Shown here: positions 5,811-20,875 of the stretch, in pieces
Position numbering within the stretch: position 1 is the first letter of the stretch
How the letters are laid out: each line of letters starts with the position of its first letter
Source of the DNA: a virus
IMG/VR virus record: IMGVR_UViG_3300025011_000220
Coordinates: 1 to 20,875 of that record
DNA length: 20,875 nucleotides
Reading direction: 5' to 3' (one strand)
Translations under genes and position numbers: made by a program
Notes under the pieces: generated by a model
What the model was told of the DNA's origin: nothing
What the model saw: only the letters and a program-made list of their open reading frames with translations
Database searches by the model: none

Positions 5811-7615
5811 TATCTCATCTCGCTTCCGCTATCGTACTGGACTCCGAGCGATATAACACTCATTCCTTCGTCCAACACGTTATTTCTAAACATAAACTGA
5901 AAATAGTTAGCTCGTTTTGACATTCTCTTTCGCTTTAGTACGGGGAAGAAGGAAGTATTATAAGTGAAACCAACGTAACTGAACCCAACATAGCTAAAGG
6001 CATTTGTCTGCATATTTAGGGCAATAACCCCGTTGCTTTGGCGTGAAAGAAACGTTAACTCGACTGATGACCTGTGTTGTGGTTTTGCGATTACATCCAC
6101 GCGATTAACGACTTTAATCCTACTTGGAGTACCTGTATTATCTTCTTTAGTCTTGTACCATGCGTCAATTGCCACACCGTCATCATTAGCTATTAGCTCA
6201 TCAAATTGATAGACAATGCCATCCGTGTTACTACCAAAGCAGAGAGTGTTGTCTATTTCAGCAAAGCAGGATGCAGGAACGTTTGTGTCGTACAGCCATG
6301 CGTTGAGTTTGTAATCCCAAATGTAGCAGACATCGTTGACGCATAATCCGTAATATCCATCGTGGTTGTATGAGATTGCATCCCATAAATCAACTTCCCT
6401 AAGTAGTCCGAGGTCGAGACGTTCAACTCCCGCCTTGTCGATGAGGTTGCTTATCTCATTGACCGATAGCCTGTCGTTAACTGTTGAGTTACCGAGGACT
6501 TGTAATACCCCATTGCTCGTAGAAGCGCATACAATGCTGTTGTCAACCTCTTGAATAGAACCCGGTATGTCACTACCCTTTTCGAGATTGATGGACGCAT
6601 ACGGGAATATAGGATAAGTTGCTCCATCTGCATAGGATAGGTATCCATGACCCTTGGAGTGTGATACGTAGAGTAGGTCGAAGATATGCGCTAATCCCGC
6701 GACATTTCCTGGCACCTTTTGAACTGCATCATCAGGGAAATAGTCCGCATTGTAGTTTTCTCCGTATAGACGAGAGTGCCATATTAGGTCGGGATAGTTA
6801 GGGTTGCCGCTAAAGAATACTGTCGCTTCTGATTTTCCTCCGAACACTTCTGAGATAGTACAATTTAGGATGTATTCGGGGTGAGCAAGGGATGCCTTGA
6901 ATGCCGTTATGATGACGTTGTTTGTGCCGATGGCAGGAGCGACATTGAAGGTGACTACGCCCGTTGTACGGTTGACGCTGAAGTTAGTTGTCTCGACCAT
7001 TGCTACTCCATTGACGATTGCTGTTATGGCCGTTGCGTCGAGAGAGGTGTAAGGGAGAGTATAGGCTGTTGCCGTACCTGTTGCGGTGAATGCGACACGG
7101 AATCCTGCAGATATTAAATTAAAACCTTCATTGACGGTCCCTGCATTGGGGGAGCCTGTCGGTGAGCGACCAATTAAGATAAGAGGTTTGTATGCCGTGT
7201 CCGTAACGTCTTCAGGGGTTGAGCCATCATATCTTATAAAGTCCGTTCCGTTGTGCATGTACATTTTGTCACTGAGGACAAAAAAAGAAGCCTTAGCATT
7301 TGCTAGGCCTGATTTAATCTCGATAGGTTGGTCGTTGTCGTATTGCTCGTAGAGTTTTGTGCTGTGTGCGATTATTTTGTAGCTATCGCCGTTTGCTTTT
7401 TTGTATTGGAATAAGCCGTTGATGCCACCGACTCCAAGGGATATGGGGTATAAACGCTTAAACCCGGGCCTTTTCCCTACCGTACCATCCCTGATTCTTA
7501 CATTTTGAAGCTCGGGGGAAAATTTAGGTGCAATTAAAGAAGGTGAATTAAGATAATCCAACCCTCCCGAAAAATCAGAATACGTTAACTCCCTTGACGT
7601 ATTAGGAAATTTCAA
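5810..7615 (-). CDS. Tail nozzle / packaged-DNA stabilization-type protein
   Basis: This 601-residue protein has an N-terminus (FSGGLDYLNSPSLIAPKFSPELQNVRIRD, about 15-43, then a KRPGFKRLY turn) typical of short-tailed phage nozzle or DNA-stabilization proteins, which open with a strand, a Pro-rich loop and an R(x)PG turn. The rest is beta-rich and would suit a propeller-like body. Near the C-terminus SYVGFSYVGFTYN contains a five-residue tandem duplication. Family resemblance is by architecture, not a firm match. The start is uncertain: the TTG chosen lacks a well-spaced ribosome-binding site, while a good GGGGTGAT lies about 20 bases upstream next to non-standard in-frame codons (ATC, ATA). 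The stop overlaps the fibre gene as TAATG. Confidence 0.7.
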   Translation of the reverse strand: MKFPNTSRELTYSDFSGGLDYLNSPSLIAPKFSPELQNVRIRDGTVGKRPGFKRLYPISLGVGGINGLFQYKKANGDSYKIIAHSTKLYEQYDNDQPIEIKSGLANAKASFFVLSDKMYMHNGTDFIRYDGSTPEDVTDTAYKPLILIGRSPTGSPNAGTVNEGFNLISAGFRVAFTATGTATAYTLPYTSLDATAITAIVNGVAMVETTNFSVNRTTGVVTFNVAPAIGTNNVIITAFKASLAHPEYILNCTISEVFGGKSEATVFFSGNPNYPDLIWHSRLYGENYNADYFPDDAVQKVPGNVAGLAHIFDLLYVSHSKGHGYLSYADGATYPIFPYASINLEKGSDIPGSIQEVDNSIVCASTSNGVLQVLGNSTVNDRLSVNEISNLIDKAGVERLDLGLLREVDLWDAISYNHDGYYGLCVNDVCYIWDYKLNAWLYDTNVPASCFAEIDNTLCFGSNTDGIVYQFDELIANDDGVAIDAWYKTKEDNTGTPSRIKVVNRVDVIAKPQHRSSVELTFLSRQSNGVIALNMQTNAFSYVGFSYVGFTYNTSFFPVLKRKRMSKRANYFQFMFRNNVLDEGMSVISLGVQYDSGSEMR

Positions 7616-7645
7616 GCTCTTTATCTGTGCGATGTTATCACCCCA

Positions 7646-8554
7646 TTACCAGTTACTAACATTTTCGATCGTGCCGTTTTGCTCGTCAATCGTATGGGCA
7701 GATTCATTGACAAAGGCATCGAATTGATTCAAGAGTATAATCCCATTCTGTTGGCTTCCTGTACTCAGCAACCAAGTTCCAGCCGCGAAGTAGGCAAGGT
7801 AGGCGTGATTCTGCTCCTGTATCTCAGGTTCGTCCGTATCGAGAACTAACTTATCGGGACACTTAAAATACAGAACATCAAAACTTCCAATGTAATAATA
7901 ATTTATAACTATGTTTTTCTTCTCAATGGAATAGTCAATTAAAGTCGTATGCAAGCGATCGTCAGAATTTTGCACAACCTTATTCATGGATATATATCCG
8001 GTCGGGAGAGGGTATTTAATATACGGTTGGAATTTAGGCACATCAGAAGAACTGGCGAACGTATAGCCATACAATGCAGTTCGTCTAATATTAAAAGGAT
8101 AAGGCCCAGCAAAGCGCATCCTAACAGTATTAGACACATTAGAAGGAGCTACCAGCCCTTTGTATTCTGTAAATCCGCTGATTCCAGTTATAGTCAGTGT
8201 GGCTAAATTTGTCCACACTCCGCTAATGCTTTCCTCAAGATAGACAACGCAATTTCCATCTACCTCGAAGTAGTAAGACTTAACCCCTGTTGCGGAAACT
8301 TCTATATCTGCATCCAAGTGTTGGACGATATTGAACGAGCTATAAACATTGAGCAAGTTTGGTATAGGGTTCTGAGTTATAGGAAATACCGCTTCTATTT
8401 TGTCTTTTTCGGAAAATTTGTTCTGAGCAGTATTCAAAAACGCATTAAATGCAAGTCTGAAATCTGCCGTATCGCTCAACGGCAATTGTTCTCCATCTGC
8501 TGAAAATGAGTTAGCTAAGGATAATGCCAAGTCTCTTATCTCAGAGAGATTCAA
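7646..8554 (-). CDS. Head-tail connector / tail structural protein candidate
   Basis: I chose the TTG start that follows GGGGGGG by five bases; an earlier in-frame TTG at 8593 would overlap the previous gene and lacks a site. The 302-residue product starts MNLSEIRDLALSLANSFSAD, then an LSDTADFRLAFNAFLNTAQNKF segment. This helical N-terminus with a D-x-x-R-x-N-x-x-x-x-A-Q pattern is common in connector or adaptor-like proteins of Gram-positive phages. The remainder is beta-rich, with strands such as VKSYYFEVDGNCVVYLEES and a C-terminal helix. Position between the head genes and the nozzle candidate fits a gatekeeper or tail adaptor. The family assignment is tentative. Confidence 0.65.
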   Translation of the reverse strand: MNLSEIRDLALSLANSFSADGEQLPLSDTADFRLAFNAFLNTAQNKFSEKDKIEAVFPITQNPIPNLLNVYSSFNIVQHLDADIEVSATGVKSYYFEVDGNCVVYLEESISGVWTNLATLTITGISGFTEYKGLVAPSNVSNTVRMRFAGPYPFNIRRTALYGYTFASSSDVPKFQPYIKYPLPTGYISMNKVVQNSDDRLHTTLIDYSIEKKNIVINYYYIGSFDVLYFKCPDKLVLDTDEPEIQEQNHAYLAYFAAGTWLLSTGSQQNGIILLNQFDAFVNESAHTIDEQNGTIENVSNW

Positions 8555-15015: not shown

Positions 15016-15975
15016 TTATACTAGGGATAGTTGCTGGATTCCGTTTTTGTAGCCGAGATAGGAGAGGATTTTTTGTTCTTTGGCGAGGGAGTACGTGGGT
15101 TGTCTGCGGAACCATGTTTTCCATTCTTGAGTGCGCTTACCACTGTTACAACTTTTACACGCACAGACTATATTATCCCTTGTGAACTCACCTAATTTTT
15201 TTACTGGAATCAGGTGTTCCATAGCAAGTGGTTCTTCTGAGTCACAAAAAACACATTTATTACTAAAGTATTCCCTAACTTCTTTCCACTGATTAGTGGT
15301 AAAGGTATGAGGAAGGTTCCTGACCCTAGACCTACGCCTTTCATTAGTAACGCGTTGCTCTTCTGGATGGTCGGTTCTCCACTGTTTACTAGCTATGGCA
15401 AAGTATTCCTTATTATTTCTATAATATTCTCGCATTTTTTCGCGAAGCGTATCTCCATTTTCAAGGTGGTACTTTCTTTGCTTAATGGCAATAACCTCTT
15501 TATTGGCTATGCTATATCTTTTCTTACGAGCTACTACGGCATCATGATTCCTGTCCCTGTACTGCTTATCTTTTTCGGTGAACTTTTCTATATTGTCTAG
15601 ACGGTATTGCTTCCTGTTTTTAGCAACTAATTCCGGATTATCTAATGTGTACTTTTTATGGTTATCAAATGTGCACATTTTACATTCATTTCTGAATCCA
15701 TATTTAGTATCTGTCCTAACGTAAAAGTATTCGTCAGTTTTTGGGAATACTCTCTCGCAATCAGAACATTTTTTAGTATCCGAAGTGAGTAGCGCTAATT
15801 CCCCTATAGCCCTTGCATCCTTATACCCAGGAGTTTTGCGTAGTTCTTCATATATCCTCCTGCACTCCCTACATTCTCCCCTCAGTCCATCTTTGTTTCC
15901 CTTTTGAGGCTTGAAATACTGGGTATTTGCAATAAACCATTCCTTACATTTGTTACACTTCTTAAAGCTAGGCAT
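15016..15975 (-). CDS. HNH endonuclease with N-terminal zinc fingers and helical repeats
   Basis: I start at the ATG (AGGGGG nine bases upstream), giving 319 residues; a TTG six codons earlier overlaps the site. Two tandem zinc motifs lie at the N-terminus (C7/C10 with C35/C38; C70/C73 with C98/C101). Residues about 115-205 hold repeated units of the form KxYxxxN (NRKQYRLDN, DKQYRDRN, RKKRYSIAN, KQRKYHLEN), as in DNA-binding arms of homing-type endonucleases. The HNH core spans about 241-281: C241/C244, H254 in EHLIPV, then C273/C276 followed by NSGK. It lies between large terminase and portal, with its own promoter. HNH nucleases can aid packaging at that position, or be free-standing mobile genes. 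Both are open here. Confidence 0.85.
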   Translation of the reverse strand: MPSFKKCNKCKEWFIANTQYFKPQKGNKDGLRGECRECRRIYEELRKTPGYKDARAIGELALLTSDTKKCSDCERVFPKTDEYFYVRTDTKYGFRNECKMCTFDNHKKYTLDNPELVAKNRKQYRLDNIEKFTEKDKQYRDRNHDAVVARKKRYSIANKEVIAIKQRKYHLENGDTLREKMREYYRNNKEYFAIASKQWRTDHPEEQRVTNERRRSRVRNLPHTFTTNQWKEVREYFSNKCVFCDSEEPLAMEHLIPVKKLGEFTRDNIVCACKSCNSGKRTQEWKTWFRRQPTYSLAKEQKILSYLGYKNGIQQLSLV

Positions 15976-16032
15976 TAAAATTAACCCCCTCAAGGTTTTA
16001 CTTTTTCCCTCAAATCAATTCGAAAGCGAAAG

Positions 16033-16093: not shown

Positions 16094-16122
16094 ATTATAC
16101 CATATTTTAGGTTTATCTGCCT
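16094..16122 (-). promoter_or_regulatory. Putative promoter with extended -10 for the HNH-portal transcript
   Basis: On the minus strand TGGTATAAT gives a perfect TATAAT with the TG of an extended -10. The hexamer 17 bases upstream, AGGCAG, is a poor -35, which an extended -10 can tolerate. It overlaps the end of the large terminase gene and would start transcription in the leader before the HNH gene. Confidence 0.55.
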
Positions 16123-17705
16123 ATTTTATTAAGAATATAATCCCGTTCTTCTTGAGTGCGACAATTCTCAAGGTCTTCCAATATATCATCTGGCAAATCC
16201 TTGTAGTTACGGGTAACTTCAAGCTCAGTCCTATTGGAGTGATAAGCAATGAGTCCGTAGCCTGCGCCATCATACCAATGGTCATATGAGCATTCCATAA
16301 CCTTTTCTGGATTCTTAGGGTCTTGTAGGAGTTGTGGCAATGTCTCAATCAACTTTTCGCAAGTATTAAATATCTTAACTTTACTGGTCGTTACTTTTGC
16401 ATTTTCATCAAAATACGATTTGAAATACTCATGGTATGTGGCCTTCCTGAACACGCGATCCGTAACAGCCCTTAAACAATCATTTACCCCGCCTTCAATG
16501 TAGAAATCAATAATGGATTTACCCTGCGGGGTATTACTACTCTTGGTAAGTGGGTGAACAGCCCATGCATCATGACCGGCTACAGTGAATCCGATACGCT
16601 CATTGCCTGTCTTGAAAACAACTTGCTTTGCCTGTTCTGAATAACTTACCTTTTCGTCCTTCGGCTCCCTTGTATACTCCCTGTAAATATAAACTGTTCC
16701 AAACTCATCTACGGCGTACCAGTACCACGCGAATGAATCAGTATAACCATTGTCTACAGCTCTCCACTTTCTCCAATGTGCAGGTATTTCGAACGCATCC
16801 ACAACATGCAAGTCATAACTAAACTCAGGGAACGCTATTCCTTCAGATGCCTCGAATGCTTCCTCTGGCGTGTTCGGGTACTCAGCTCGATAAGACAACG
16901 GTAAGTCTTTTTTTGTCTGCTCATACCACTCCGCCGTTCTTCTTGGGTCGGTATCCCACGGAAGAAATACTCTTGCGAATGTGTTTACACCCTTAGTGGC
17001 CTTAACCCATATCTCTTCAAACAGTGTCATGCGTTTTGCTGTAGATAGTCCGATTACTCTACCACCAGAGGGTCTATTTATTGTGGGGTATGCAGCAGAC
17101 CAGATAGTTTTTGCCCATTGCTGGAACGCCCACTCATCCAATAAAACAAGGTTAGCCGTAAACGAACGCCCACTGTCCGGCCCTGCCGATAATGAGGTGA
17201 ATGTACTTTGATATGGCTTGTGTAATACGGTCACAGTTAAAACAGTTGACTCCCATTTTAACCCCTTATACGCTGCGTTTTCTTTTACATTTTGAGTAAT
17301 CATCCATTTAGGGAGATTGGAAAGAATAAATTCTATTCGCCTGACTAATTCCTTTGCGTCCGGTGTCTCTGTTTTTGATAAGGCTACTACCGAATAACCA
17401 GGGAAATAAATCATGTACCATACGATAAGTGCCAAGGCAAGCCAAGTTAATCCTAATTGACGAGCCTTTAATACGATATTTAGACGGTTATTAAGAAAGC
17501 TATTCAATGCCCCCACTTGCTTAGGCCACATAGTAAATGGGGTTGCCTTGTTGCCGCCCATTTCAACGGCATCCATATCTTCAATCTTAACGAACTTCTC
17601 TATGAAATATTGGCAGCTTCTTTTTCCTAGTTCCCATTGGATTGCCTCTAATGAGGGTAAATCCTTTGCGCTAACTACTACAGGCTTATCCTTCTTAACC
17701 ACCAC
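16113..17705 (-). CDS. terL: Terminase large subunit (packaging ATPase-nuclease)
   Basis: The 530-residue protein shows a full terminase layout. ATPase: KARQLGLTW at 80-88 (a variant Walker A of the RQxGxT type), VLLDEW at 187-192 (Walker B with catalytic Glu), and GLST at 219-222 (coupling motif). Nuclease domain: VDNGYTDSFAWYWY at 317-330 (first metal Asp), GHD at 377-379, and a late DHWYDGAGYGL segment (475-485) with Asp479 as a likely metal ligand. It drives DNA into the procapsid through the portal and cuts it at the end. The start is GTG, four bases after GAGGTGA; an out-of-frame ATG lies just beside it. The small subunit gene is about 3 kb upstream instead of adjacent. Confidence 0.92.
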   Translation of the reverse strand: MVVKKDKPVVVSAKDLPSLEAIQWELGKRSCQYFIEKFVKIEDMDAVEMGGNKATPFTMWPKQVGALNSFLNNRLNIVLKARQLGLTWLALALIVWYMIYFPGYSVVALSKTETPDAKELVRRIEFILSNLPKWMITQNVKENAAYKGLKWESTVLTVTVLHKPYQSTFTSLSAGPDSGRSFTANLVLLDEWAFQQWAKTIWSAAYPTINRPSGGRVIGLSTAKRMTLFEEIWVKATKGVNTFARVFLPWDTDPRRTAEWYEQTKKDLPLSYRAEYPNTPEEAFEASEGIAFPEFSYDLHVVDAFEIPAHWRKWRAVDNGYTDSFAWYWYAVDEFGTVYIYREYTREPKDEKVSYSEQAKQVVFKTGNERIGFTVAGHDAWAVHPLTKSSNTPQGKSIIDFYIEGGVNDCLRAVTDRVFRKATYHEYFKSYFDENAKVTTSKVKIFNTCEKLIETLPQLLQDPKNPEKVMECSYDHWYDGAGYGLIAYHSNRTELEVTRNYKDLPDDILEDLENCRTQEERDYILNKIGR

Positions 17706-19006: not shown

Positions 19007-19540
19007 TCAATCGCCCTCCTTATTCGGTTTACCTTTTTTAATAAGTCTCGATGAAATAACATAACCGCCATCGGTTGAATAAAGGAGTTCATTTTCCTTC
19101 ATTTCACCCAATAGGCGGTTTAATTTCTTGTTTCCACAACCAAATATAGTTTGTATCTCTTTGTATTTCAAAGGATTCTTAGTACGCGGTTGAACCAATT
19201 TTCCTGTATTCCACTCAACGTATTTACCTAACGATACTAAGTACCCTGCCAGTTCTTCGACATTCCTGACTCCACTTTTTCTTAACCTATCAATCTCTTC
19301 AACCATGAGCATGATATAAGGCTTCTTTCCTCCTGTGTGCTTTGGGGGGTCTTTATCCTTCCTTGCTGGCTTATTCGGATTGTGCCAGAACGAGTAGAGT
19401 GTTAATTCCCTATTGTCATTATCAATCTTAACCGTAATGTATTCCTGTCCATTGGGTGCCTTATCCCTAGTAATAGTAACCCCTTGCGGAATCAACACAT
19501 TAGTATTCCCGTTAAGGAAATCAAGTAAATTCTTCTCCAT
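19007..19540 (-). CDS. Putative winged-helix DNA-binding protein
   Basis: The ATG follows GAGGTG by five bases and yields 177 residues; a TTG eight codons upstream lacks a site. The N-terminal part (about 1-60) is beta-like. Residues about 60-75 are very basic (ARKDKDPPKHTGGKK). The C-terminal half reads like a winged helix: NVEELAGYLVSLGKYVE, then KYKEIQTIFGCGNKKLNRLLGEMKENELLY (helix-turn-helix, about 125-154) and a wing-like GGYVISSRLIKKG. This style is seen in phage and plasmid replication or regulatory proteins, but I cannot name the family. The long gap upstream (19541-19768) contains palindromes and is a plausible target. The stop lies two bases before the ATG of the next gene. Confidence 0.65.
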   Translation of the reverse strand: MEKNLLDFLNGNTNVLIPQGVTITRDKAPNGQEYITVKIDNDNRELTLYSFWHNPNKPARKDKDPPKHTGGKKPYIMLMVEEIDRLRKSGVRNVEELAGYLVSLGKYVEWNTGKLVQPRTKNPLKYKEIQTIFGCGNKKLNRLLGEMKENELLYSTDGGYVISSRLIKKGKPNKEGD

Positions 19541-19768
19541 ATTCCACCTCAAAAGCCCTTTCAATGGGCATTACTTAGGTGTCGAAACGACACGTTGTAA
19601 AAATGGCACTCAGCCTTACTCTCCCTAAGAGTGTAGGGTTTTCTTCATGTAATTCGTTTATATATACGTTCTAGCCTCGTTGCGTTATTTAGTTTGTAAA
19701 ATATTTTTTATAAAAAGAGTATCCTTGCCTTAAAAGTACTTGATGATTTTAGGGGTATGGGGGGCTAG
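19541..19768. other. Gap with palindromes and shared short repeats
   Basis: No gene is visible in these 228 bases. The stretch contains the perfect inverted repeat GTGTCG-AAA-CGACAC (19579-19593), the motifs CCTTACTCTCCC (19614-19625) and AGAGTGTAGGGTTTT (19628-19642), and an AT-rich segment (19685-19720). The motifs recur, directly or inverted, beyond the zinc-ribbon gene at 20143-20153 and 20461-20484. It probably holds the promoter or operator of the winged-helix gene, but no confident -35/-10 pair stands out. Confidence 0.5.
19579..19593. promoter_or_regulatory. Perfect inverted repeat, candidate operator
   Basis: GTGTCG and CGACAC surround a three-base AAA. It lies 39 bases upstream of the ATG of the putative winged-helix gene. 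The symmetry and spacing suit a dimeric DNA-binding protein, possibly the product of the adjacent gene; an RNA hairpin is also possible. Confidence 0.4.
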
Positions 19769-19951
19769 TTATTTACATAAACCTTCGTGCATGGATTTGT
19801 ATTCGAGGAGAGAGTCGTATTCCTTGCGTGTAATTACCACTCTTTCTAGGCCATCTCCATTGCAATCGTTGCACTTGAATTCATGGTCATTTCCTCTTAA
19901 TTTGTAATGGCCTAAACCATCGCATAAACCGCATTTATGTTCATCCTTCAT
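19769..19951 (-). CDS. 60-residue CxxCxGxG zinc-ribbon protein
   Basis: The ATG follows AAAGGAGTTAGCTCC. The product has two DnaJ-type zinc-ribbon half-motifs: CGLCDGLG at residues 7-14 and CNDCNGDG at 27-34. It ends with a charged helix (TRKEYDSLLEYKSMHEGLCK). Two such half-sites make one zinc centre. In DnaJ this module helps hold unfolded chains; isolated copies are common small proteins of phages and plasmids with unknown roles. There is no J domain. The gene stands alone between two long non-coding gaps, so it may have its own promoter in the AT-rich segment just upstream (19955-20010). Confidence 0.75.
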   Translation of the reverse strand: MKDEHKCGLCDGLGHYKLRGNDHEFKCNDCNGDGLERVVITRKEYDSLLEYKSMHEGLCK

Positions 19952-20019
19952 GGAGCTAACTCCTTTGCGTTAAAATATTTTTGTAATTTTTTATTTTATT
20001 TTTTGTAGGAATGGTTGAT

Positions 20020-20047
20020 GTCTATTGAGGGGATGTAGTATATAGAC
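20020..20047. repeat. Six-base inverted repeat GTCTAT / ATAGAC
   Basis: GTCTAT at 20020-20025 and ATAGAC at 20042-20047 surround a 16-base loop. It directly adjoins the G-rich nested hairpin. Confidence 0.3.
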
Positions 20048-20063
20048 GGTTACCGCCTGGTGA

Positions 20064-20102
20064 ACCCAATCTCGTGCCACCTCTGACGAGGGGGGGTTGG
20101 GT
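20064..20102. repeat. Nested hairpin with a seven-G run
   Basis: Outer arms ACCCAA (20064-20069) and TTGGGT (20097-20102) and inner arms CTCGT (20071-20075) and ACGAG (20086-20090) pair around a ten-base loop. The side opposite the outer arm holds a run of seven G (20090-20096). It is the most stable-looking structure in the gene-free interval. Confidence 0.5.
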
Positions 20103-20174
20103 ACTCGGGTTTATGCCAAAACACTGATTTAGGTGAAATAGTAGAGTGTAGGGATAGAAATACATACACAGATC

Positions 20175-20210
20175 ACCCCTTTACCCGACTCACAGCTCAG
20201 GGTATGGGGT
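20175..20210. repeat. Bulged inverted repeat ACCCC-ACCC / GGGT-GGGGT
   Basis: ACCCC (20175-20179) and ACCC (20183-20186) pair with GGGT (20200-20203) and GGGGT (20206-20210), leaving small bulges and a 13-base loop. Confidence 0.4.
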
Positions 20211-20223
20211 AGGGTCAGAATCT

Positions 20224-20254
20224 CAGCACACCACAGGCCAACAGCACACCACAG
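20224..20254. repeat. 13-bp direct repeat with 18-bp period
   Basis: CAGCACACCACAG occurs at 20224-20236 and again at 20242-20254. The period is a multiple of three, so a plus-strand frame would read STPQ twice. The surrounding bases are richer in CAG and GC than the rest of the window. Confidence 0.6.
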
Positions 20255-20441
20255 CACCCAGCCATGCAGAGACATCCGATGCCACTACAGCCGAAGCAAC
20301 AGCCAGCCGGCAGCGCAGCAGAGTCAATGCCACCAATCGCAGAGCAGCCAATGCTATCCGGCCATAACAACATAAGGTACAGACACATCTATATGCACAT
20401 TGCATTGAGTCCGATAACTAACATTATGTAAAGCACACAAT

Positions 20442-20536
20442 TTAGATTACGATGACTACTAAAACCCTACATCCTTACTCTCCCAACGATCACAGGATTT
20501 ATGTCTATATTGGTTAAGCTACCTTACGTAATCTAA
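20442..20536. repeat. 10-bp inverted repeat pair
   Basis: TTAGATTACG (20442-20451) and CGTAATCTAA (20527-20536) are perfect inverted copies 75 bases apart, just downstream of the small terminase gene in the direction of transcription. They may bind a protein that bridges two sites, or flank a small element. Confidence 0.45.
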
Positions 20537-20583
20537 TTGAGAATAGAGGACATATTCCATGGCTGAAGGACATCATTTTGCTG

Positions 20584-20875
20584 CTAATCCTCTGTAATAT
20601 CTACTACCTCCCCTTGAATCTGTGCTCTCTCCATAATCTCTGCCATCAAGCGTAAATCCTCATCAGAGTAGGCAGAGACAGCCTGGATGAGCAGAGGGCC
20701 GCCGTTAGGGCCGGAATACTCCACAGATTGAGTATCCTTCCAGCCTTTGAAGTTGTTTGTCAGGCTGAATTTAGCACCATTGACACCATCTTTATCAAAC
20801 AGCCTGGCCTCGGCATAAGCCTCTACCCTAGCTTTTGCATGTGTAACAGCGTCAAAGAACTCTGCCTTATCCTGA
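20584..20875 (-). CDS. terS: Terminase small subunit, C-terminal part (gene runs off the window)
   Basis: An open minus-strand frame enters at the window edge and ends at TAG, giving the last 96 residues. The sequence includes a helix (AEFFDAVTHAKARVEAYAEA), then RLFDKDGVNGAKFSLTNNFKGWKD (about 30-53 of the visible part), SVEYSGPNGGPLLI and a helical end (DEDLRLMAEIMERAQIQGEVV). The A(K/I)F-L-NN-F-GWKD pattern followed by a Gly/Pro-containing strand is typical of the C-terminal part of small terminase subunits of Gram-positive phages, the end that contacts the large subunit. The N-terminal DNA-binding part lies outside the window. About 2.9 kb separate it from the large subunit gene. The call is by pattern, without a database search. 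Confidence 0.75.
   Translation of the reverse strand, partial: QDKAEFFDAVTHAKARVEAYAEARLFDKDGVNGAKFSLTNNFKGWKDTQSVEYSGPNGGPLLIQAVSAYSDEDLRLMAEIMERAQIQGEVVDITED

Follow-up and report, generated by a model that had tools for sequence, protein, structure and literature searches.

Genomic Setting

The window is the whole 20,875-base record of an uncultured virus that was analysed here, and it carries a phage head and packaging module with leftward transcription. Its gene order is terS (small terminase), a non-coding interval (19952-20583), a 60-aa zinc-finger-like open reading frame (ORF), accessory ORFs of 185 and 225 aa, small ORFs, terL (large terminase), portal and major head protein, the 225-aa product being a T5orf172-domain protein. 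Only the 3' part of terS is present (20584..20875, minus strand), as the gene is cut at the window end; it matches the small terminase subunit families PHROGs 309 and 606 (E 9e-6 and 2e-4) and has 23 relatives. The terL gene (16113..17705, minus strand) matches PHROGs 2 (E 5e-33). Since the stop of terS ends at 20584 and its 5' part extends beyond the window, the interval lies 3' of terS, between terS and terL. The former, which the first-pass annotation had rightly named as its neighbour, is its upstream boundary, and the latter is the far boundary of an island of accessory genes. Between terL and portal, an ORF at 15016-15993 resembles a zinc-finger/HNH endonuclease on inspection by eye, with CxxC pairs and, near the C-terminus, CKSCNSGKR. 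Contigs end inside terS at position 20875 of the window and at the starts of L017, L025, L027, and L045, which probably reflects a shared recombination boundary that breaks assembly rather than physical DNA ends.

The best annotated TerL matches were about 30% identical, with T4-like terminases prominent and no close cultured relative among them, and a 69%-identical TerL was found on a contig of 67.7 kb that had been binned with a Bacillota metagenome-assembled genome (MAG). TerS and TerL searches yielded 84 viral loci, and distinct copies of the interval are present in about 20 of these. A search of the interval against annotated phages gave no match, and 73 genomes from the order of the MAG to which contig L114 belongs gave only three borderline matches of 31-36 bp, at the 3' end of the query.

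Composition of the Interval

The interval is gene-free, as the first-pass annotation had claimed: its longest ORF spans 60 aa, a length that 66% of shuffled sequences reach as well. This ORF, at 20223-20405 (minus strand), has no match in Pfam or PHROGs, and a tRNA/tmRNA search found none. An unrecognised small gene, for example one for a membrane peptide in the A-poor block, is a most improbable explanation. Hydrophobic translations arise from the A-poor composition and a short hydrophobic peptide is common to L045 and L094, but no ORF is common across the family, the frame of the 60-aa ORF is broken by indels in relatives, and ORF length is as in shuffled sequence; a conserved small ORF was accordingly rejected.

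Several compositional features were also confirmed, namely a mildly unusual run of seven G (20090-20096; p = 0.034), a 13-bp direct repeat that is unlikely by chance (20224-20236 and 20242-20254; p = 0.002), and a CAG-rich block on the plus strand (about 20215-20365) that reads as A-poor and CTG-rich on the late-gene strand. The description of the interval as structure-rich did not withstand comparison with shuffled sequence, because inverted repeats showed no excess over chance (p = 0.77 and 0.22) and neither strand folded better than shuffles, the fold energy of the whole interval giving z = -0.15 on the minus strand and +2.2 on the plus strand.

Conserved Blocks and a Paired Motif

Related uncultured phages, well over a dozen of them, have short blocks of the interval at the same location. 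Alignment of the interval copies displays conserved blocks with a fast-changing linker between them; the interval consists of interchangeable non-coding modules. This strong conservation, visible by comparison, was missed in the first-pass annotation, as was a second copy of the paired motif described below. Block A (20455..20503, minus strand) has 87% mean column identity in 13 phages. Its 26-nt core (20462-20487, minus strand) is 85-100% identical to the window among relatives, against 18-65% at the four-fold degenerate sites of terS (Fisher p 0.04 to 1e-7 per pair, the pairs not being independent). Block A contains exact matches to two motifs on the minus strand, M1 GGGAGAGTAAGG (20473-20484) and M2 TGTAGGGTTTT (20461-20471). 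Adjoining it is a 29-nt imperfect palindrome (20420..20448, minus strand), AATGTKACA...TGTRACATT in relatives and degenerate in the window, which has a fixed length and one copy per phage. Its arms are nearly invariant in sequence and lack paired changes, a pattern that appears to be as in a protein-binding site rather than an RNA stem.

The variable linker follows (20226..20411, minus strand). It is A-poor and CTG-rich, and in relatives the interval holds mobile genes there: an intact GIY-YIG endonuclease gene in L015, a C-terminal remnant of it in L025 and L035, and serine resolvases in L016 and L027. A group I or II intron was considered for the GIY-YIG region of L015, where no core elements were seen by eye and no Rfam match was obtained. 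Block D (20150..20225, minus strand) is made of a C-rich box, GGGTAAAGGGG, then ATCTGTGTATRTAT, and was found by nhmmer in nearly every member, the Bacillota MAG contig L114 among them; pattern matches to it in L098-L100 fall in coding sequence and were dismissed as chance. The 3' half of block D is homologous to an element, E3, of phages that do not have D itself. Module E2 (19999..20106, minus strand; CCCCTCGTCAGAGGTGGCACGAG...TATATACTACAT) is 80% identical in relatives and, according to nhmmer, common to six distinct members; an AT-rich leader and a ribosome-binding site come after it.

The second M1/M2 site (19614..19642, minus strand) precedes the next accessory gene (19007-19564) by about 75 nt. 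Within the window, M1 and M2 are both matched exactly at 20461-20484 and 19614-19642 and nowhere else. Exact copies in the relatives G001 and G002 are likewise limited to those two sites; one-mismatch M1 sites elsewhere in G002 were discounted as they lie inside genes. For the 12-mer M1, 0.12 occurrences are expected by chance in the window at one mismatch, and none of 100 shuffles reached two. At the second site the orientation of M2 relative to M1 is inverted, an arrangement that would suit DNA sites better than RNA, and we treat M1/M2 as putative DNA-binding sites.

The Accessory Island Between terS and terL

The terS and terL genes are adjacent in L020 and L053 and 1-3 kb apart in the family of the window. 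A phage moron is an accessory ORF flanked by a promoter and a terminator and inserted between genes that are contiguous in relatives (PMC3029335). Similarly, ORFs and terminators are inserted here between terS and terL, which adjoin in distant relatives, and gene content is patchy from one phage to another. The island differs from described morons by an unusually long, multi-module non-coding front common to many phages, and its promoter is putative. The first accessory gene behind the interval is the 60-aa zinc-finger-like ORF (19769..19951, minus strand), drawn from the ORF list, which has weak DnaJ_CXXCXGXG and Q-like PHROG matches and a homologue directly behind D in L035 and L025. The cassette has its own terminator behind the accessory ORFs, composed of a C-box CCCCCCATACC, an intrinsic-terminator-like hairpin and a T run (19712..19764, minus strand), the hairpin being perfect in relatives and degenerate in the window.

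The modules hold a near-constant spacing to gene starts while the genes themselves are exchanged. Four unrelated ORFs start 128-155 nt downstream of E2. For E3 the distance to the ORF behind it, which can come from unrelated families, is mostly 57-64 nt, and for the second M1/M2-type site, which is found ahead of two unrelated families, it is 73-78 nt. One and the same ORF family follows E2 in one phage and E3 in another, and upstream of the zinc-finger ORF the window has both D and E2, where L035 and L025 have only D. Several phages lack a recognisable ORF start within 100 nt of D. TATA-like modules stand at near-constant ORF spacing, and a sigma-70 scan gave one weak promoter-like site against 2.8 expected. 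An AT-rich motif, AAAATATTTTATAAATTTTT, was noticed just upstream of accessory ORFs of the island in L004, L006, L015, L016, L018, L041, and L094. One relative carries a late activator gene (PHROGs 248/36) upstream of terS, which implies that the main late promoter is there and that terS has its own late control.

The island is exchanged whole by recombination, with breakpoints inside terS and terL. Between the terS stop and the next large gene, L002 and L024 match at 1,059/1,059 bases, and over 4.6 kb they are 98.7% identical. Their TerS proteins nevertheless share only 89/176 residues, the DNA-binding half being the divergent one, and beyond the first part of terL their TerL proteins differ as well. 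As with the conserved boundary sequences of mosaic phages (PMC3029335), shared blocks flank exchanged modules and a 4.6-kb island was swapped; here, however, the breakpoints fall in the terminase genes and not in the non-coding blocks, which are also near-constantly spaced to gene starts. The interval also resembles the insertion sites of free-standing homing endonucleases in phages through the GIY-YIG gene and remnant found in relatives, although no such gene or remnant was recognised in the window's own interval.

Other rearrangements were observed around the island. TerS is mosaic in L024, L002, L010, L018, L035, and L094, where a conserved C-terminal part is joined to several unrelated N-terminal DNA-binding parts. 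L003, L004, L006, and L009 share the interval, and their terL products are about 25% identical over most of their length and, in some, 61-78% at the extreme C-terminus, a mosaic junction. In L041 (5439-8084) and L042, terL is split into residues 11-481 and 481-530, about 1.1 kb apart, which suggests an intron or other insertion. The island of L113 includes an ORF that by eye is tRNA-guanine transglycosylase/DpdA-like (6512-7135; phrog_15826, of unknown function), followed by a membrane transporter-like ORF (7117-7794; phrog_4899), a pair possibly involved in 7-deazaguanine DNA modification.

Packaging Site, Structured RNA, or Neutral Debris

The first-pass annotation had offered three readings of the interval, a packaging site, an operator hub or a non-coding RNA, and the operator hub is the best of them, since the interval is under constraint, the two-part M1/M2 motif recurs and module spacing is near-constant. 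The two others fared less well. A cos or pac site recognised by the terminase is suggested by the adjacent terS, by the palindrome and repeats, and by known terS-linked pac sites, that of P22 lying within terS and that of SPP1 overlapping the terS promoter and start (PMC9611059, PMC6316719). The interval is likewise near terS but stands downstream of it and is independent of TerS and TerL types: the same 1,059 bp accompany different TerS DNA-binding domains and different TerL proteins in L002 and L024, and block A occurs with several unrelated TerS N-termini across the family, so that the change with the cognate TerS expected of a cos or pac site is not seen. In addition, the interval is missing where terS abuts terL in the distant relatives L020 and L053, and the ends of a 64.9-kb relative overlap by 126 bp in a gene far from the interval, a closure that would be compatible with headful packaging. 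We thus regard the packaging reading as very improbable. A structured RNA, acting in trans or as a leader element of late mRNA, seems improbable too. Block A contains two candidate hairpins, conservation in E2 spans more than 80 nt, and consensus folds were computed for A, D, and E2 with column shuffles, together with explicit pair counts for the A hairpin, the palindrome and D; for E2 a single divergent sequence, that of the window, was available. Folds of the alignments were better than column shuffles for A, with z -3.1 on the plus and -2.7 on the minus strand, and likewise for antisense D (z -4.0). Against this, the whole interval folds no better than shuffles, the consensus-fold signal of A and D is similar or stronger on the antisense strand, the D helix is broken in L041 and L045, and Rfam 15, at gathering and permissive thresholds, returned nothing credible and no family at gathering score. 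Of conservation with compensatory changes, the check proposed at the outset, the conservation was found, as blocks in relatives, but the compensatory changes were not: the pair counts for the three candidate helices showed no clear covariation beyond column shuffles. One D variant reached 6/500 on one covariation measure, yet just 56% of its cells are paired, and one slid register outscores it.

The interval could also be mostly neutral debris, a landing pad for departed homing endonucleases and resolvases whose apparent conservation reflects recombination among co-occurring phages. The mobile genes and remnant lodged within the interval of relatives, the frequent indels and mosaic blocks, and the 1-kb tract identical between phages all speak for such a history. 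It does not readily account for a 26-nt core of block A kept in phages that differ from one another at most degenerate sites of terS, for the reappearance of M1/M2 at a second, non-allelic site or for modules that hold near-constant spacing to ORF starts, and we consider it unlikely overall.

A Proposed Control Region at the Front of a Moron Island

Our preferred explanation, held at about even confidence, is that the interval is a cis-acting control region at the non-coding front of a moron island between terS and terL in uncultured Bacillota-associated phages, its shared blocks providing recombination homology. Block A and the palindrome would stand behind terS as the first modules of the island, the fast-changing linker would take up mobile elements, and D and E2 would be two gene-start modules with promoter or leader roles. 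The putative DNA-binding sites (M1/M2 and the palindrome) would, with these modules, set accessory-gene expression, and the terminator would close the accessory cassette. The shared blocks may double as homology for the recombination that swaps the island between phages. From the comparative record, we infer regulator binding and promoter activity at the interval. A location upstream of genes adds little to this explanation, because the region is one-directional and gene-dense and every intergenic block precedes some gene; the only informative part of the positional support is near-constant spacing with ORF exchange. The conserved stretch of E2, longer than a promoter needs, argues against a control region, as do the sigma-70 scan, whose yield is below expectation, and the phages in which D stands apart from any recognisable ORF start.

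As the control and boundary region of a moron island, the interval would be ordinary in kind; its sequence is new. It is possible, although we hold this only tentatively, that M1/M2 with the palindrome, D/E3, and E2 form a previously undescribed family of portable control modules, read by a regulator, expressing accessory genes independently of the late operon and exchanged as a kit. Conserved non-coding DNA that follows terS is not necessarily a packaging site, and two functions that are often assumed together are here separated. Should the modules be control elements, they would account for the way in which unrelated accessory genes can be plugged into a late operon and expressed on their own schedule, and M1/M2, D/E3, and E2 would be sequence handles for finding such islands in uncultured phages.
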